From a virus, in the IMG/VR virus record IMGVR_UViG_3300020074_000140, positions 1 to 22,115 of that record: a DNA stretch of 22,115 nt, one strand, 5' to 3'. Positions 11,436 to 16,999 of the stretch are shown here, piece after piece. How positions within the stretch are numbered: position 1 is the first letter of the stretch; the number at the start of each line of letters is the position of its first letter. The notes under the pieces are model-generated. The model saw only the letters and a list, made by a program, of their open reading frames with translations. It was not told the origin of the DNA and did no database searches. The position numbers and the translations under genes are program-made.

Positions 11436-12622
11436 ATAAAGAACAACTATATTCAGCTCATAATCCAGACAATATAAAAATAAATATCGGTGGCTCATGC
11501 GTGGGTGGCATAGGCTCAACTAACTGGGATATGACTTATAATGAAATAAGGATACTACCAGATAAGCCTTTAAACTCATGGCACTTTATACAGGAAAGCA
11601 TTAACCGCAAAAAACAATTTACTGTAAACATAGACCAGTACATTTCCAGGACAAGCCATTGGTTGCCAGATGAAGCTACATATAAAAATCATGTAAATCA
11701 TATTTGTAATGAGCTACTTAAAAGAGATAGTAACGTAATAAATTATTGTGATATTACAGTTGATAACGAGCCATTAAAAAATAATTATCATCCAAATACT
11801 GATAGCTATATCAAATATGTAAAATGGTGTAGCCAAGTAGCAAAGTCTTACTTGTTTAAAGTATCAGCAGGTAATGAAGAATTTAACCTTGCAGAGCACA
11901 GGGTAATAGTGAATGGCTGGAAGAATTTATACTATGAAATGGGGCTGCTTAAAGAGCTTGGCATAATAGACAGGATTGCAATACATATTCAAGGTGCTTG
12001 CCTTACAGATGAACTCCGTAAACGCTGGACACAGTTTTGCTTTGGTATAGTAAATGCTTATAAGTTTAAGTTAGAGAATACATTTATTTGCACTGAGGCT
12101 GCTTACACTGACCCTAAAAATACAATGTATAGCCATTGGATACCAAAGATTAAAATGGCACTTGATTTAAAATGCAGTGCTATTGGGTTTGTGTTTATAG
12201 ATTATGATAGCAAATATAATGAGTACAATACAGATTATAGCTGGCTTGCAATATTTAAGGATAAACAATTAAGAGTATCACAGCAGGCATGGAATGATTT
12301 TAGAGATATAGCAATTAAGTATAAAAGAATTGAAATAGAGGAGTTTGATGATATGAAATTAAAAGTATTAAAGCCAGGTTCAAAAGGAAACCAAGTTTTA
12401 TTTATTCAGGAAATAATGAGCCAGGAATACGGATTTGAAAATCCATTGTTTGACGGCATATACGGAAGTTTGACATTACATCAGGTTAAAGAATACCAGT
12501 CATCAAATCATCTTACAGTAGACGGCATTATAGGCAAGTTTACAATGACAGATTTAATTAACAAATCATCAGACCCTAAAAAATGGATGAATAGATTGCA
12601 AGTATTTATGGCTTATGAGTAA
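11432..12622 (+). CDS. Lysin 1: TIM-barrel-like hydrolase with PG-binding domain
   Basis: The 396-residue protein has two parts. Residues about 1-300 look like a TIM-barrel glycoside hydrolase: alternating strands and helices, DNEP (111-114) placed like the acid/base Glu after strand 4 of clan GH-A enzymes, and FICTEAAY (218-225) like the nucleophile Glu near strand 7. Residues about 309-380 form a peptidoglycan_binding_1 domain (LKPGSKGNQVLFIQ; FDGIYGSLT; VDGIIG). There is no signal peptide, so release would need a holin. Cleavage of cell wall glycan is inferred; the catalytic assignment rests on two short motifs. It overlaps lysin 2 by 8 nt. Confidence 0.75.
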   Translation: MNKEQLYSAHNPDNIKINIGGSCVGGIGSTNWDMTYNEIRILPDKPLNSWHFIQESINRKKQFTVNIDQYISRTSHWLPDEATYKNHVNHICNELLKRDSNVINYCDITVDNEPLKNNYHPNTDSYIKYVKWCSQVAKSYLFKVSAGNEEFNLAEHRVIVNGWKNLYYEMGLLKELGIIDRIAIHIQGACLTDELRKRWTQFCFGIVNAYKFKLENTFICTEAAYTDPKNTMYSHWIPKIKMALDLKCSAIGFVFIDYDSKYNEYNTDYSWLAIFKDKQLRVSQQAWNDFRDIAIKYKRIEIEEFDDMKLKVLKPGSKGNQVLFIQEIMSQEYGFENPLFDGIYGSLTLHQVKEYQSSNHLTVDGIIGKFTMTDLINKSSDPKKWMNRLQVFMAYE

Positions 12623-13430
12623 AGACTTTATAAATTTATTAAGTAGCAAAATAGATAATATACCGAACTTTCCTGTACTTAAAAGTTTAGCCATAGCACA
12701 AGCCTGTCTTGAAAGCAGATACGGGCAAAAGCATTTTTACAATAACATTTTTGGGATTAAATGTTGGAATGTAAATGCTTATGCAGGCTGTCGTATAGGT
12801 CGTACATCAGAGTTTATTGACGGTTCTTATCAGCATAATTTGAGTTTAGCTTTTCAGGTATATGATAGCTTTGATGATAGCTTAAAAGATTATGCAAGGT
12901 TAATGAATATAAAAAGGTATGAGCGTGTACGTAATGCTAAAAACTATATTGAAGCAACACAGGCTGTAAAGGATTGCGGTTATGCTACATCACTTGCGTA
13001 TGTGGCTAATTTAAGACGTATTATAGAGCAATATAAATTATATGAATTGGATAATAAAATGGAAGATTATTATATAACTCCTAATTTTAAAATGAGTGAA
13101 TTTATCTGCAAAGACGGTACTGAAGTACCAGAAGATTTAAAAATCTATATGGAGATAGTTGCTACTGAATTACAGATGTTACGTAATGAAATAGATAAAC
13201 CTATTATAATCACGAGTGCATACCGTACACCAGAATATAATAAAAAAGTAGGCGGCAAACCTGCAAGCTATCATTTAAAAATGCAGGCTGCTGATATAAG
13301 AGTATCTGGTATGAAACCTTATGATGTAGCTGTATATGCTGCAAGATATACAAACTTTGGAGGATTTGGTATTGCTAATAGTTTTTTACATTTAGATTTG
13401 CGCCCAAAATTTTTGATATTCAAATACTAA
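12615..13430 (+). CDS. Lysin 2: glucosaminidase plus M15 peptidase
   Basis: The 271-residue enzyme joins two wall-degrading domains. Residues about 15-140 match the N-acetylglucosaminidase (FlgJ/GH73-like) family: AIAQACLESRYGQ with catalytic Glu33, NNIFGIKC, then FQVYDSFDDSLKDYARLM. Residues about 155-268 match peptidase M15 of the endolysin type, with SAYRTPEYNKKVGG, zinc ligands H220 and D227 in SYHLKMQAADI, and H259 in FLHLD. The glucosaminidase cuts the glycan and the M15 domain a peptide bond in the stem or bridge. With lysin 1, this gives three putative catalytic activities in two coupled genes. There is no secretion signal. Confidence 0.9.
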   Translation: MSKDFINLLSSKIDNIPNFPVLKSLAIAQACLESRYGQKHFYNNIFGIKCWNVNAYAGCRIGRTSEFIDGSYQHNLSLAFQVYDSFDDSLKDYARLMNIKRYERVRNAKNYIEATQAVKDCGYATSLAYVANLRRIIEQYKLYELDNKMEDYYITPNFKMSEFICKDGTEVPEDLKIYMEIVATELQMLRNEIDKPIIITSAYRTPEYNKKVGGKPASYHLKMQAADIRVSGMKPYDVAVYAARYTNFGGFGIANSFLHLDLRPKFLIFKY

Positions 13431-13452
13431 AATACCTTGCATGGGGTTAAAT

Positions 13453-13511
13453 ATTAATCAAGAAATAATTCTATGATTAATCGTGAACCAATATGTTCAT
13501 TAATCGTGAAC
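13453..13511 (+). repeat. ATTAATC repeats at a 23-bp period
   Basis: ATTAATC occurs at 13453, 13476 and 13499, exactly 23 bp apart. The second and third copies extend to a perfect 13-mer, ATTAATCGTGAAC. The third also forms a GTTCA/TGAAC inverted repeat (13495-13499 with 13507-13511). The array sits between the lysin stop and the structured RNA, where a regulatory protein or a promoter could act. Confidence 0.7.
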
Positions 13512-14072
13512 ATACTGGATTACTGAACATTACCAGACATGTAGTAAATTTATTGTTAATTGCTGGTAACATGCCATACAAACTGCTCCGTATGGAGTAA
13601 CTGTATGGCATAACTGGGGACAAAATGTCCTCACATGTTGTTAGCTAACTGGTTAGCTGGTAGGGCAGAGCAATAGCGAATAACGTAATACGTATAGGCG
13701 TAAGCTCTGCTATATTCCTGCATGGTTTCTGTACGAGCCTAAATGCTTATCTAAACCAGCGTCTATTGATGTCAGCCTGGCTTTACCTGATGGGTCGGGC
13801 TGTCTGCATCGGGATAGCAAGCGAAATTCAACGGGTATATACCTGTTGCGCCTCTGCTAACTGCGGCTTTATACTCCGGAATGAATACCGGCACTCGCAA
13901 TACCAGCGTAATTAACTGGTAGATTGGGTATAAAGGCAGTGGGGTTTGCGGTTATCCTGCAGTATGATTGGCTTCATGCCAGACTGCAAAAACCGCTATA
14001 GGATTGCGGCTCTCCTTGCAGGTGTGGTGACAATACTGCCTGCTAAAACCGCAGTCATTCGGAATTTCCGAA
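13495..14072 (+). ncRNA. Large structured phage RNA (ROOL/GOLLD-like candidate)
   Basis: No plausible gene fills this stretch, yet it is crowded with helices and looks richer in G and C than its surroundings. Clear helices are: 13571-13580 with 13602-13611 (10 bp, enclosing CTCC/GGAG); 13616-13622 with 13626-13632; 13643-13648 with 13653-13658; 13665-13671 with 13704-13710; 13723-13728 with 13753-13758; 13786-13792 with 13807-13813; 13829-13836 with 13841-13848; 13867-13876 with 13926-13935, stacked outside by 13861-13864 with 13936-13939 and enclosing 13901-13906 with 13916-13921; the nested set 13948-13953/13991-13996, 13958-13963/13983-13988 and 13969-13972/13978-13981; 14005-14009 with 14049-14053, enclosing 14018-14022/14039-14043; and 14058-14062 with 14068-14072. 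Wobble pairs in several helices are G-U only if the plus strand is transcribed. Size, phage setting and nearby tRNA genes resemble ROOL and GOLLD RNAs. The class name is inference, and the ends are approximate. Confidence 0.75.
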
Positions 14073-14091
14073 CAACTTATAGAAAGGCAAT

Positions 14092-14402: not shown

Positions 14403-15158
14403 ATTATTATAGATAAAAATAGTATTGTTACTGCAGTATCATTTGGGGACTTACATGTTCCAAGACATGATATTGAAAGTTTGAATTTATTACTGAAGTT
14501 TTTGAAAGTCCTCAAACCCGATTATATTATTGAGGTGGGGGACAGGCTAAACGGTAAATCAGTATCATTTCACTTAAAAGATTTATACACCACGCCCACG
14601 CTAAAAGAAGAATTTAAAGCTGCTAAAGAAGTTACGGAACAAATAAATTACGCTATACCGTCAGCAAAAAAAATACTTGTAAAAGGAAATCATGACTTCT
14701 GGGTAGTTAAATTTACATGGCAGCACCCCGAACTTGTTGGCATTATTGATTACAACAGAGAACTTGGGTTAGACGACTGGGAAGTAATAGAATATGGCAG
14801 TTCGTTTGAATTTAGGGACTTTATATTTACTCATGGATTAAAAGCACGTTCCGCAAGTGGTTATACAGCAAACGCTATGGTTAGTTGTTTTGGCAGAAGT
14901 GGTATGTCTGGTCATACACATAGACTGGGCTCTTCGTACAGGACATTTTATGATACAACTCACGGTTGGTGGGAAAATGGTTGTATGTGTGATTTTGCAT
15001 TGTCAGAAGAATGGTTTCATGAACCTAACCCAAACTGGCAACATGGCTTTAGTATTATTAAGTTTTTTGATAATAAGAAATTTCATGTAGACCAAATACC
15101 AATACCAGAACAAGACAAGTTTATATTCTATAATAATAAGTATTATGTATTAGATTAA
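14403..15158 (+). CDS. Calcineurin-like metallophosphoesterase, ATT start
   Basis: The product, read from ATT at 14403, is 251 residues and has the whole dinuclear-metal set: GDLH (15-18), GD (46-47), GNHD (95-98), THG (His144) and SGHTH (169-173). The first canonical-type start in this frame is a TTG at 14481, which would delete GDLH and so the active site. Upstream, AAGGAGTAAT is followed by ATT ATT ATA, matching base for base the AAGGAGTAAT-ATG of the preceding gene. I therefore infer initiation at ATT (14403 or 14406). Function could be phosphatase, nuclease or cyclic-nucleotide hydrolase; the substrate cannot be read from sequence. Confidence 0.82.
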   Translation: MIIDKNSIVTAVSFGDLHVPRHDIESLNLLLKFLKVLKPDYIIEVGDRLNGKSVSFHLKDLYTTPTLKEEFKAAKEVTEQINYAIPSAKKILVKGNHDFWVVKFTWQHPELVGIIDYNRELGLDDWEVIEYGSSFEFRDFIFTHGLKARSASGYTANAMVSCFGRSGMSGHTHRLGSSYRTFYDTTHGWWENGCMCDFALSEEWFHEPNPNWQHGFSIIKFFDNKKFHVDQIPIPEQDKFIFYNNKYYVLD

Positions 15159-15187
15159 AGACAAACAAAATTAAATATCAACAACAT

Positions 15188-15229
15188 GAGGGACTGCCCG
15201 TAACGGTCCCTCAACCTTTTACGGGGAGG
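15188..15229 (+). promoter_or_regulatory. Predicted H-type pseudoknot over the HNH gene RBS
   Basis: Stem 1 pairs 15188-15194 (GAGGGAC) with 15206-15212 (GTCCCTC). Its loop holds CCCGTAA (15197-15203), perfectly complementary to TTACGGG (15219-15225), which runs into the ribosome binding site GGGGAGG (15223-15229). Linkers are 2, 2 and 6 nt. The architecture is nearly that of the element at 3898-3935, with unrelated sequence. Confidence 0.62.
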
Positions 15230-15749: not shown

Positions 15750-15825
15750 GCTTCCTTAGCTCAATAGGCAGAGCGTCTGTTTTGTAAACAGGTGGTTGAG
15801 GGTTCAATTCCTTCAGGAAGCTCCA
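15750..15825 (+). tRNA. tRNA-Thr (anticodon TGT)
   Basis: A complete 76-nt cloverleaf with encoded CCA. The acceptor GCTTCCT pairs perfectly with AGGAAGC, the D-arm is GCTC/GAGC, the anticodon arm TCTGT/ACAGG encloses the loop TTTGTAA, and the T-arm is GAGGG/CCTTC around TTCAATT. It reads ACA, a codon used heavily by the phage genes around it, so it probably supports late translation. Confidence 0.96.
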
Positions 15826-15831
15826 AGTTTT

Positions 15832-15907
15832 TGCAGGTTACAGTTCTGGTGAACTGAGAGGTCTCATAAGCCTTTTTAGACGGGTTCAATTCCCGTACCT
15901 GCTACCA
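15832..15907 (+). tRNA. CAT-anticodon tRNA, initiator-like
   Basis: A 76-nt cloverleaf with encoded CCA and loop CTCATAA. The acceptor is TGCAGGT against ACCTGCT, so positions 1 and 72 are U and U and do not pair, while G2-C71, C3-G70 and A73 are present. The D-stem CAGT/ACTG gives A11-U24, and the D-loop holds CTGGT. These are marks of initiator tRNA-fMet recognised by MetRS and the formylase. The anticodon stem has G29-C41 and G30-C40 but U31-G39 instead of a third G-C pair. An elongator Met or an Ile2 tRNA (lysidine-modified, reading AUA) remains possible. Confidence 0.88.
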
Positions 15908-15914
15908 AGATAAG

Positions 15915-15996
15915 CTGGGTGGCGCACCAGAGGGGCTGGCTGTATTTGAAGTTAGCCAGCAGATATAGTAATGATGGGTGGGATGCTATATCACCA
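15915..15996 (+). ncRNA. Folded non-coding segment ending in ACCA
   Basis: Three helices follow one another: 15915-15921 with 15925-15930 (one bulge), 15935-15941 (GCTGGCT) with 15954-15960 (AGCCAGC), and 15962-15968 (GATATAG) with 15986-15992 (CTATATC). The last 7-bp stem is followed by ACCA, as in a tRNA acceptor end, yet the enclosed 17 nt holds no T-arm. It could be the tail of the tRNA transcript, a decayed tRNA, or a separate small RNA. Confidence 0.4.
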
Positions 15997-16070
15997 AGTT
16001 ATATGTTTATATAACTACCTAATATGGTATATTCTGCTATACACATAATCCCATATTATGGACTTTTATA

Positions 16071-16103
16071 CTACATTATAGTCAATTAATATACATAATG
16101 TAG
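16071..16103. repeat. 9-bp perfect inverted repeat
   Basis: CTACATTAT (16071-16079) is the exact inverse of ATAATGTAG (16095-16103). The left arm overlaps a 16-mer, ACATTATAGTCAATTA (16073-16088), that recurs with one change at 16164-16179. Confidence 0.7.
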
Positions 16104-16113
16104 CCGAATATAC

Positions 16114-16149
16114 TACTTTACACTATTGCTGTATTTTACTTTACATTAT
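16114..16149. repeat. 13-mer direct repeat, 23-bp period
   Basis: TACTTTACACTAT (16114-16126) and TACTTTACATTAT (16137-16149) differ at one base and start 23 bp apart. A 9-mer direct repeat TAAGTTGTC follows at 16199 and 16210, 11 bp apart. Confidence 0.6.
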
Positions 16150-16242
16150 CGTTTAACAGTATCACATTGTAGTCAATTATATAAGATTTGTAGTCATTTA
16201 AGTTGTCAATAAGTTGTCTTTATTACTGCAATGTCCATTATA

Positions 16243-16301
16243 TGCAGTGTATTGCACAAAATACATACCAAATTGTGTAGTGTACTGGACAAAATACACA
16301 A
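16243..16301. repeat. Imperfect 25-bp direct repeats with internal dyads
   Basis: 16243-16267 and 16276-16300 match at 21 of 25 positions and both contain ACAAAATACA. The second copy lies within a perfect inverted repeat TTGTGTA/TACACAA (16273-16279 with 16295-16301). This looks like a pair of protein-binding sites. Confidence 0.6.
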
Positions 16302-16449
16302 CTTTATGTATACCCTATGCAGTATAATATCCTGTATTTATGCCATAAAACGCATAAAAACCCCACGAATATATGACAAATATAACCGATAAGGTATATC
16401 AATTTAATGCTATTTTAACTTAATGTCAAACCTAACATCTACTTGCAAC

Positions 16450-16468
16450 TTGTAAGGATTACTTACAA
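16450..16468. repeat. 7-bp inverted repeat, operator-like
   Basis: TTGTAAG (16450-16456) and CTTACAA (16462-16468) are exact inverses around a 5-bp spacer. It lies about 135 bp before the next gene and could be an operator. Confidence 0.45.
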
Positions 16469-16508
16469 CTTCAACCATGCGGTAAATATTACATCTATTC
16501 ACCGCAGT

Positions 16509-16571
16509 TGGTGCAGGAAATAGCAAAATGGTGCAGTAGATAAGCTCAAAATACTTTGTTACTTGGTGCAG
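16509..16571 (+). repeat. Three TGGTGCAG repeats before the 85-aa gene
   Basis: TGGTGCAG occurs at 16509, 16529 and 16564. The spacing is uneven (20 and 35 bp). The last copy is about 33 bp before the start codon of the next gene, so the group may bind a regulator of that gene. Confidence 0.5.
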
Positions 16572-16603
16572 AGTTTCAGCAATAGTTGAAAGGTGGTGAA
16601 ATA

Positions 16604-16922: not shown

Positions 16923-16955
16923 GCGTGCGTTAAGCGTGCGTTAAGCGTGCGTTAA
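16923..16955 (+). repeat. Three perfect tandem 11-bp repeats
   Basis: GCGTGCGTTAA is repeated three times without gaps (16923, 16934, 16945). An 11-bp unit puts each copy on the same face of the helix. The array lies about 45 bp before the next gene, so it may be an origin-type iteron set or an operator. Confidence 0.88.
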
Positions 16956-16999
16956 ACATCATAATTCAATATTAACAAGAATTAGGAGAAAGGATTACA

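Follow-up and report, generated by a model that had tools for sequence, protein, structure and literature searches.

To our knowledge, large structured phage RNAs are few, and two of them form RNA-only cages. The cryo-EM structures of ROOL and GOLLD are cages made of RNA only (PMC12286853). ROOL (RF03087) is carried by phages and prophages, measures ~580-660 nt and contains many helices and pseudoknots, with tRNA genes in its wider neighbourhood (PMC12286853). GOLLD (RF02032) is likewise large and ornate, and its expression is reported to go up during lysis (PMC12286853). In phage ICP1, which lacks tRNAs, a transcriptome study found an abundant noncoding transcript of ~800 nt at the lysis cluster (PMC7567579). 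Here we describe an element that is very probably a new family at the sequence level: a modular, pseudoknot-rich phage RNA, encoded on the plus strand and lying outside Rfam.

The locus and its relatives

The whole stretch of DNA analysed, here called the window, is a 22,115-base IMG/VR virus sequence (IMGVR_UViG_3300020074_000140). Its plus-strand genes begin with an HK97-type capsid protein, tail genes, a peptidoglycan-binding-domain protein and an endolysin with glucosaminidase and peptidase M15 domains (12615-13430). The gap that follows (13431-14091, plus strand) is without a gene and holds the entire RNA candidate. It is succeeded by a 52-aa ORF, a further short ORF, a metallophosphoesterase (14406-15158, plus strand), an HNH protein, two tRNA genes (15750-15825 and 15832-15907) and a holin-like gene (17541), then by a divergent repressor/Cro region and ERF and SSB-like genes. 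The host can only be guessed to be a Gram-positive anaerobe. Within the gap, the longest ORFs are 49 aa (plus strand) and 63 aa (minus strand, TTG start), and none is a plausible gene. The homologues described below differ by indels, which argues against a shared reading frame. Both results agree with a sequence-only reading of this DNA, which had seen no plausible gene in ~580 nt. The candidate occupies ~580-600 nt in the window, and the homologous structured stretches ~300 nt.

Several other features were observed around these genes. The metallophosphoesterase start codon is apparently non-AUG (AUU) in 3/3 phages (window 14406-14408, L095 2526-2528, L104 8085-8087); it adjoins the ribosome-binding site and, in 2/3 phages, also the stop of the preceding ORF. 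Directly 3' of the same gene lies a GC-rich stem-loop, GAGGGAC...GTCCCTC, in the window (15187-15215) and several short GC-rich stems of dissimilar sequence in L095 (3283-3345). The ~680 nt 3' of the tRNA-Met gene (15908-16586) lack an ORF of 60 aa, contain many AT-rich near-repeats as well as a strong stem near 15935-15962 (GCTGGCT...AGCCAGC), and are possibly a second noncoding element. Units resembling GCGTGCGTTAA stand in tandem at 16923-16957, ahead of a second HNH gene.

A DNA search of capsid-sharing records yielded a first homologue, L095 (IMGVR_UViG_3300000558_001122), whose RNA sequence is identical in L091 (IMGVR_UViG_3300002220_000319). A third phage, L104 (IMGVR_UViG_3300035130_000173), was found with a pattern derived from the shared AGCGAATAAC...ATAGGCG. 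The known distinct sequences are therefore three (window, L095 = L091, L104), too few for R-scape-type statistics. Endolysin, RNA and metallophosphoesterase follow one another in one direction in 3/3 phages, and the core of the RNA is kept at the same place although the flanking proteins have diverged (the metallophosphoesterases of the window and L095 are 53% identical).

When degenerate patterns were run against viral contigs, L095/L091 and L104 were the only real matches. The other pattern matches, including 18 in genome contigs, were judged to be chance after the viral contexts had been read and model R1 of the core (see below), applied to all except L121 and L126-L129, had given nothing significant. 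Of the 70 loci of capsid relatives, 17 were scanned with R1, as were 28 of their full records; the core was absent from all of these but the record that also holds L095, the nearest ones being fragments that end before that place. L002, a relative by its endolysin, lacks an RNA at the corresponding place, and a BLASTN search with the element found no match among named phages and plasmids. The 34 nt that L104 shares with a Flavobacterium phage were dismissed as chance: the match lacks the core motif and has an R1 score of ~3 bits at its site. Contigs L003 and L004, which come from two further metagenome datasets, match the capsid end of the window at 100% identity over 2.8-3.4 kb and stop short of the RNA; the same phage thus recurs.

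The conserved core and its attached modules

The plus strand of 13480-14085 folds with an MFE of -217.5 kcal/mol, where dinucleotide shuffles give -170.0 +/- 5.6 (z -8.43, 0/20). A 200-nt scan over the whole window had its lowest z (-4.5) at 13501, against a window mean of -0.35 (sd 1.1). The minus strand of the same stretch gave a z of -7.66. The homologues alone, with pseudoknots unscored, were slightly better than shuffles (z -1.6 and -1.5), and these weak scores are perhaps due in part to the unscored pseudoknots.

All three phages share a core of ~110 nt (13648-13761, plus strand). It is described by model R1, which scores 111-127 bits in the three phages and was built from them, so that these matches follow by construction. 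In the core a helix, P1, closes an H-type pseudoknot made of two interleaved helices, b and c. The 5' arm of P1, GCTGGT (13656-13661), is invariant and pairs with ACCAGC (13755-13760). Helix b joins GCAGAGC (13665-13671) to GCTCTGC (13704-13710) in the window, and its counterparts are AGATAA/TTATCT in L095 and TCGGA/TCCGA in L104; it is almost completely rewritten across the three phages, with both sides changed in 4/5 comparable pairs. Helix c joins CGTATAGG (13691-13698) to TCTGTACG (13728-13735), with CGAATAGG/TCTATTCG in L095 and CGGATAGG/TCTATCCG in L104; its third pair differs in every phage (U-A, A-U, G-C). The invariant strand AGCGAATAAC (13675-13684) lies in the first pseudoknot loop, and the intervening strand AGCGAAUAAC is unchanged in the three phages while helix b is rewritten. 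Invariance of AGCGAATAAC between helix arms is as would be expected of a loop with a job.

Statistical controls were applied to both helices. In a core alignment trimmed by hand around helix b, 57/57 cells were paired and 5 pairs showed two-sided change, a result matched by 1/500 shuffles; slid-partner controls on this alignment left 27-40% of cells paired. The untrimmed MAFFT alignment, independent of hand trimming, returned helix c as its best stem (8 pairs), and 3/2000 column-shuffled alignments reached 7 or more stem pairs including a compensatory one. Shuffling the arm regions of helix b in each sequence gave p values of 0.005, 0.05 and 0.08. A second TCCGA is available in L104 as partner for the 5' arm of helix b, and helix c has a competitor in the hairpin GGTTT/GAGCC. 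Two other helices were considered and rejected: GAAT/ATTC, which pairs the invariant strand with ATTCC, never varies, and the hairpin GGAAT/ATTCC fails in the window. Comparison of the three phages thus shows a predicted core in which P1 and the pseudoknot (b, c) present the invariant AGCGAAUAAC.

Further structures surround the core, all on the plus strand. At the 5' side, MFE folding placed a GTTCA/TGAAC hairpin and a TTACCAG/CTGGTAA stem at 13480-13570, neither seen in L095 or L104. The next hairpin, ATGCCATACA...TGTATGGCAT (13571-13611), has a similar two-part hairpin, TTGCCTTACG..TACGGCAA, at the corresponding place in L095 (1862-1902). Just 3' of the core lies a second H-type pseudoknot (13773-13813), with stems S1 (13773-13778/13797-13802) and S2 (13786-13792/13807-13813). 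Both stems are also present in L095 (2054-2092), where ACAGTTC/GGGCTGT with CACGATG/CATCGTG corresponds to CAGCCT/GGGCTG with CCTGATG/CATCGGG in the window, and S2 differs by one two-sided change. In the window, GATG immediately 5' of S1 offers the CATC of S2 an alternative nested pairing, and the second pseudoknot therefore rests on comparison with one sequence. A hairpin at 13829-13848 and a domain at 13861-13939 (together 13820-13940) appear to be lineage-specific like the 5' hairpins; no counterparts of 13480-13570 or 13814-13945 were found in the homologues.

The 3' part consists of repeated modules. Module D9 (13948-13996), GCGGTT-ATCC-TGCAGT...GGCTTCATGCC...ACTGCA-AAA-AACCGC, recurs in L095 (2111-2158) and in L104 (7875-7935), there upstream of the core and with a more variable inner part. 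Module D10 (GCGGCTCTCCTTGCAGG...CCTGCTAAAACCGC, 14006-14052) is a second copy, in direct repeat, so that the window has two instances of the stem module with its TCC(T)/AAAA internal loop, and L095 and L104 have one each (in L104 on the 5' side of the core). A short hairpin, TTCGGAATTTCCGAA, without a T run, marks the 3' edge (14058-14072). The core is internal in the window and L095 and 3'-terminal in L104, the modules switching side. The duplicated module in the window and the same signature across the core in L104 suggest a building-block RNA, not a fixed leader. The second pseudoknot and the internal-loop modules, whose number and order would vary by phage, are supported by fewer sequences than the core.

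In the conserved helices (14 helix instances), the non-Watson-Crick pairs on the plus strand were 9 G-U and 0 A-C; the helices were chosen by plus-strand pairing, so this count is supportive, not independent. The sequence-only reading had argued for the plus strand on the same grounds, rightly. All the helices it named are present, but the homologue indicates that 13786-13813 is a pseudoknot stem rather than a hairpin. Its claim of a structured plus-strand RNA is supported and now extended by covariation over three phages, compensatory changes having been found when the homologous regions were aligned (n = 3 sequences). Taken together, the comparisons make it very likely that the element is a real structured RNA.

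Family searches and possible roles

In the window, cmscan with the whole of Rfam 15 at the gathering score recovered only the two tRNAs, and the element matched no family. At E<=10 the window gave TD-2 (24.9 bits against a cut-off of 48.7, in the AT-rich upstream part) and a yeast snoRNA model, both with E>=0.25, whilst L095 and L104 gave no match. The ROOL model RF03087 had no match at E<=10 in any of the three records (window, L095, L104) and, as a positive control, recovered the known ROOL of L. salivarius pMP118 (NC_007930) with 130.4 bits (E 1e-29). The GOLLD model RF02032 likewise matched none of the three phages at E<=10; the positive control covered ROOL only. A group I intron topology, considered because of interleaving like that of P3/P7, was rejected, having no Rfam support and nothing like P4-P6.

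No sigma-70-like promoter or terminator was found at the element edges in the three phages, and the sole terminator-like site is an internal helix of the element. As no promoter or terminator of its own was recognised, the RNA is most simply read as a probable part of the late transcript, and the missing signals suggest something unlike an independent abundant RNA. The RNA would then be made within the late (lysis) transcript, and its tight folding could let it survive, either released from that transcript or lying in it. By analogy with ROOL and GOLLD, it may act in trans, late in infection, as an architectural RNA whose loops and internal-loop modules would make tertiary or intermolecular contacts of the kind seen in those two RNAs. 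A trans-acting scaffold, rather than a cis element, is our first choice, held tentatively; it is favoured by the recombining modules and the intervening ORFs. Formation of homo-oligomers is rather doubtful. We also regard it as unlikely, though conceivable, that the element is a third, unrelated solution beside ROOL and GOLLD in which exchangeable modules, a pseudoknot core joined to repeated internal-loop modules for docking, assemble an RNA-only multimer during lysis.

The somewhat less probable alternative, a close second, is a cis-acting element of the late transcript, such as a ligand- or protein-sensing leader, an attenuator or an antitermination element, that sets expression of the metallophosphoesterase/holin portion of the operon. 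The invariant-loop pseudoknot would be its sensing or polymerase-binding part. The constant strand and gap and the missing promoter and terminator fit such a role, as does the core: at ~110 nt, with invariant loops and covarying helices, it resembles a riboswitch in both its size and its pattern of conservation. L104 also speaks for this reading, since there the core lies directly upstream of the metallophosphoesterase, with ~16 nt between its end and the ribosome-binding site GGGAGG of that gene. By contrast, a 97-aa ORF separates core and metallophosphoesterase in L095, as do two short ORFs and further modules in the window; module order changes, and 500-600 nt is far beyond what a leader needs.

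It is improbable that the element is a ribozyme, or a processing element by which the late transcript is cut or protected. Self-cleaving RNAs usually show pseudoknots with an invariant single strand, as seen here, and the position is intercistronic. However, no catalytic intron, ribozyme or riboswitch model in Rfam matched the window or its homologues at E<=10.

The sequence-only reading had proposed either a ROOL/GOLLD relative or a new class serving the same role. A highly diverged ROOL or GOLLD would fit a phage RNA of ~580 nt with pseudoknots and two tRNA genes within 2 kb, but this is highly improbable and largely refuted by the sequence-structure search: neither model matches at E<=10, and the ROOL control works. 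The homologues measure only ~300 nt, and no tRNA genes were found in their stretches, so the earlier argument from size and tRNA proximity was a poor one. Two tRNA genes do exist in the window, as had been noted, but they are not beside the element, lying 1.7 kb away behind the metallophosphoesterase and HNH genes. What stands is the new class, matched by no Rfam, ROOL or GOLLD model. Finally, a DNA-level structure (an attachment or replication site) or chance would suit the 5'-side inverted repeats, which are also DNA palindromes, and the good folding of the minus strand (z -7.7), but is very unlikely given compensatory changes in interleaved helices, unpaired strands conserved across phages and irregular pairs that are G-U on the plus strand.

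Comparison with ROOL, GOLLD and the ICP1 RNA

The element would be a further, sequence-unrelated family, and its small definable core (110 nt) and module swapping make it a tractable object. It resembles ROOL in being phage-borne, with many helices, pseudoknots and tRNA genes in the wider neighbourhood. The length given for ROOL membership is about 550-660 nt, a range that holds the window element (~580 nt) and not its homologues (~300 nt). Proximity to tRNA genes is a tendency of ROOL and not a strict rule; those of the window are 1.7 kb off, and ARAGORN found none in the homologous stretches L095, L100, L101 and L104. Arrays of tRNA genes are thus not required for such an element. ROOL is a discrete, abundant transcript and forms a homo-octameric nanocage; the element gives no match to the ROOL model at E<=10 and has no promoter of its own in view.

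Like GOLLD, the element is a large ornate phage RNA with one conserved and one variable part. In GOLLD the 3' region is universally conserved and the 5' region variable, whereas the element is smaller, with an internal core and permuted modules. Its likeness to the ICP1 RNA is one of description: both are large noncoding stretches adjoining lysis genes, and ICP1 has no tRNAs. The ICP1 RNA was seen as an abundant transcript. This resemblance suggests that large RNAs may recur at the lysis region among phages, and the element would offer a way to ask whether phages have repeatedly adopted large ornate RNAs as a strategy tied to that region.
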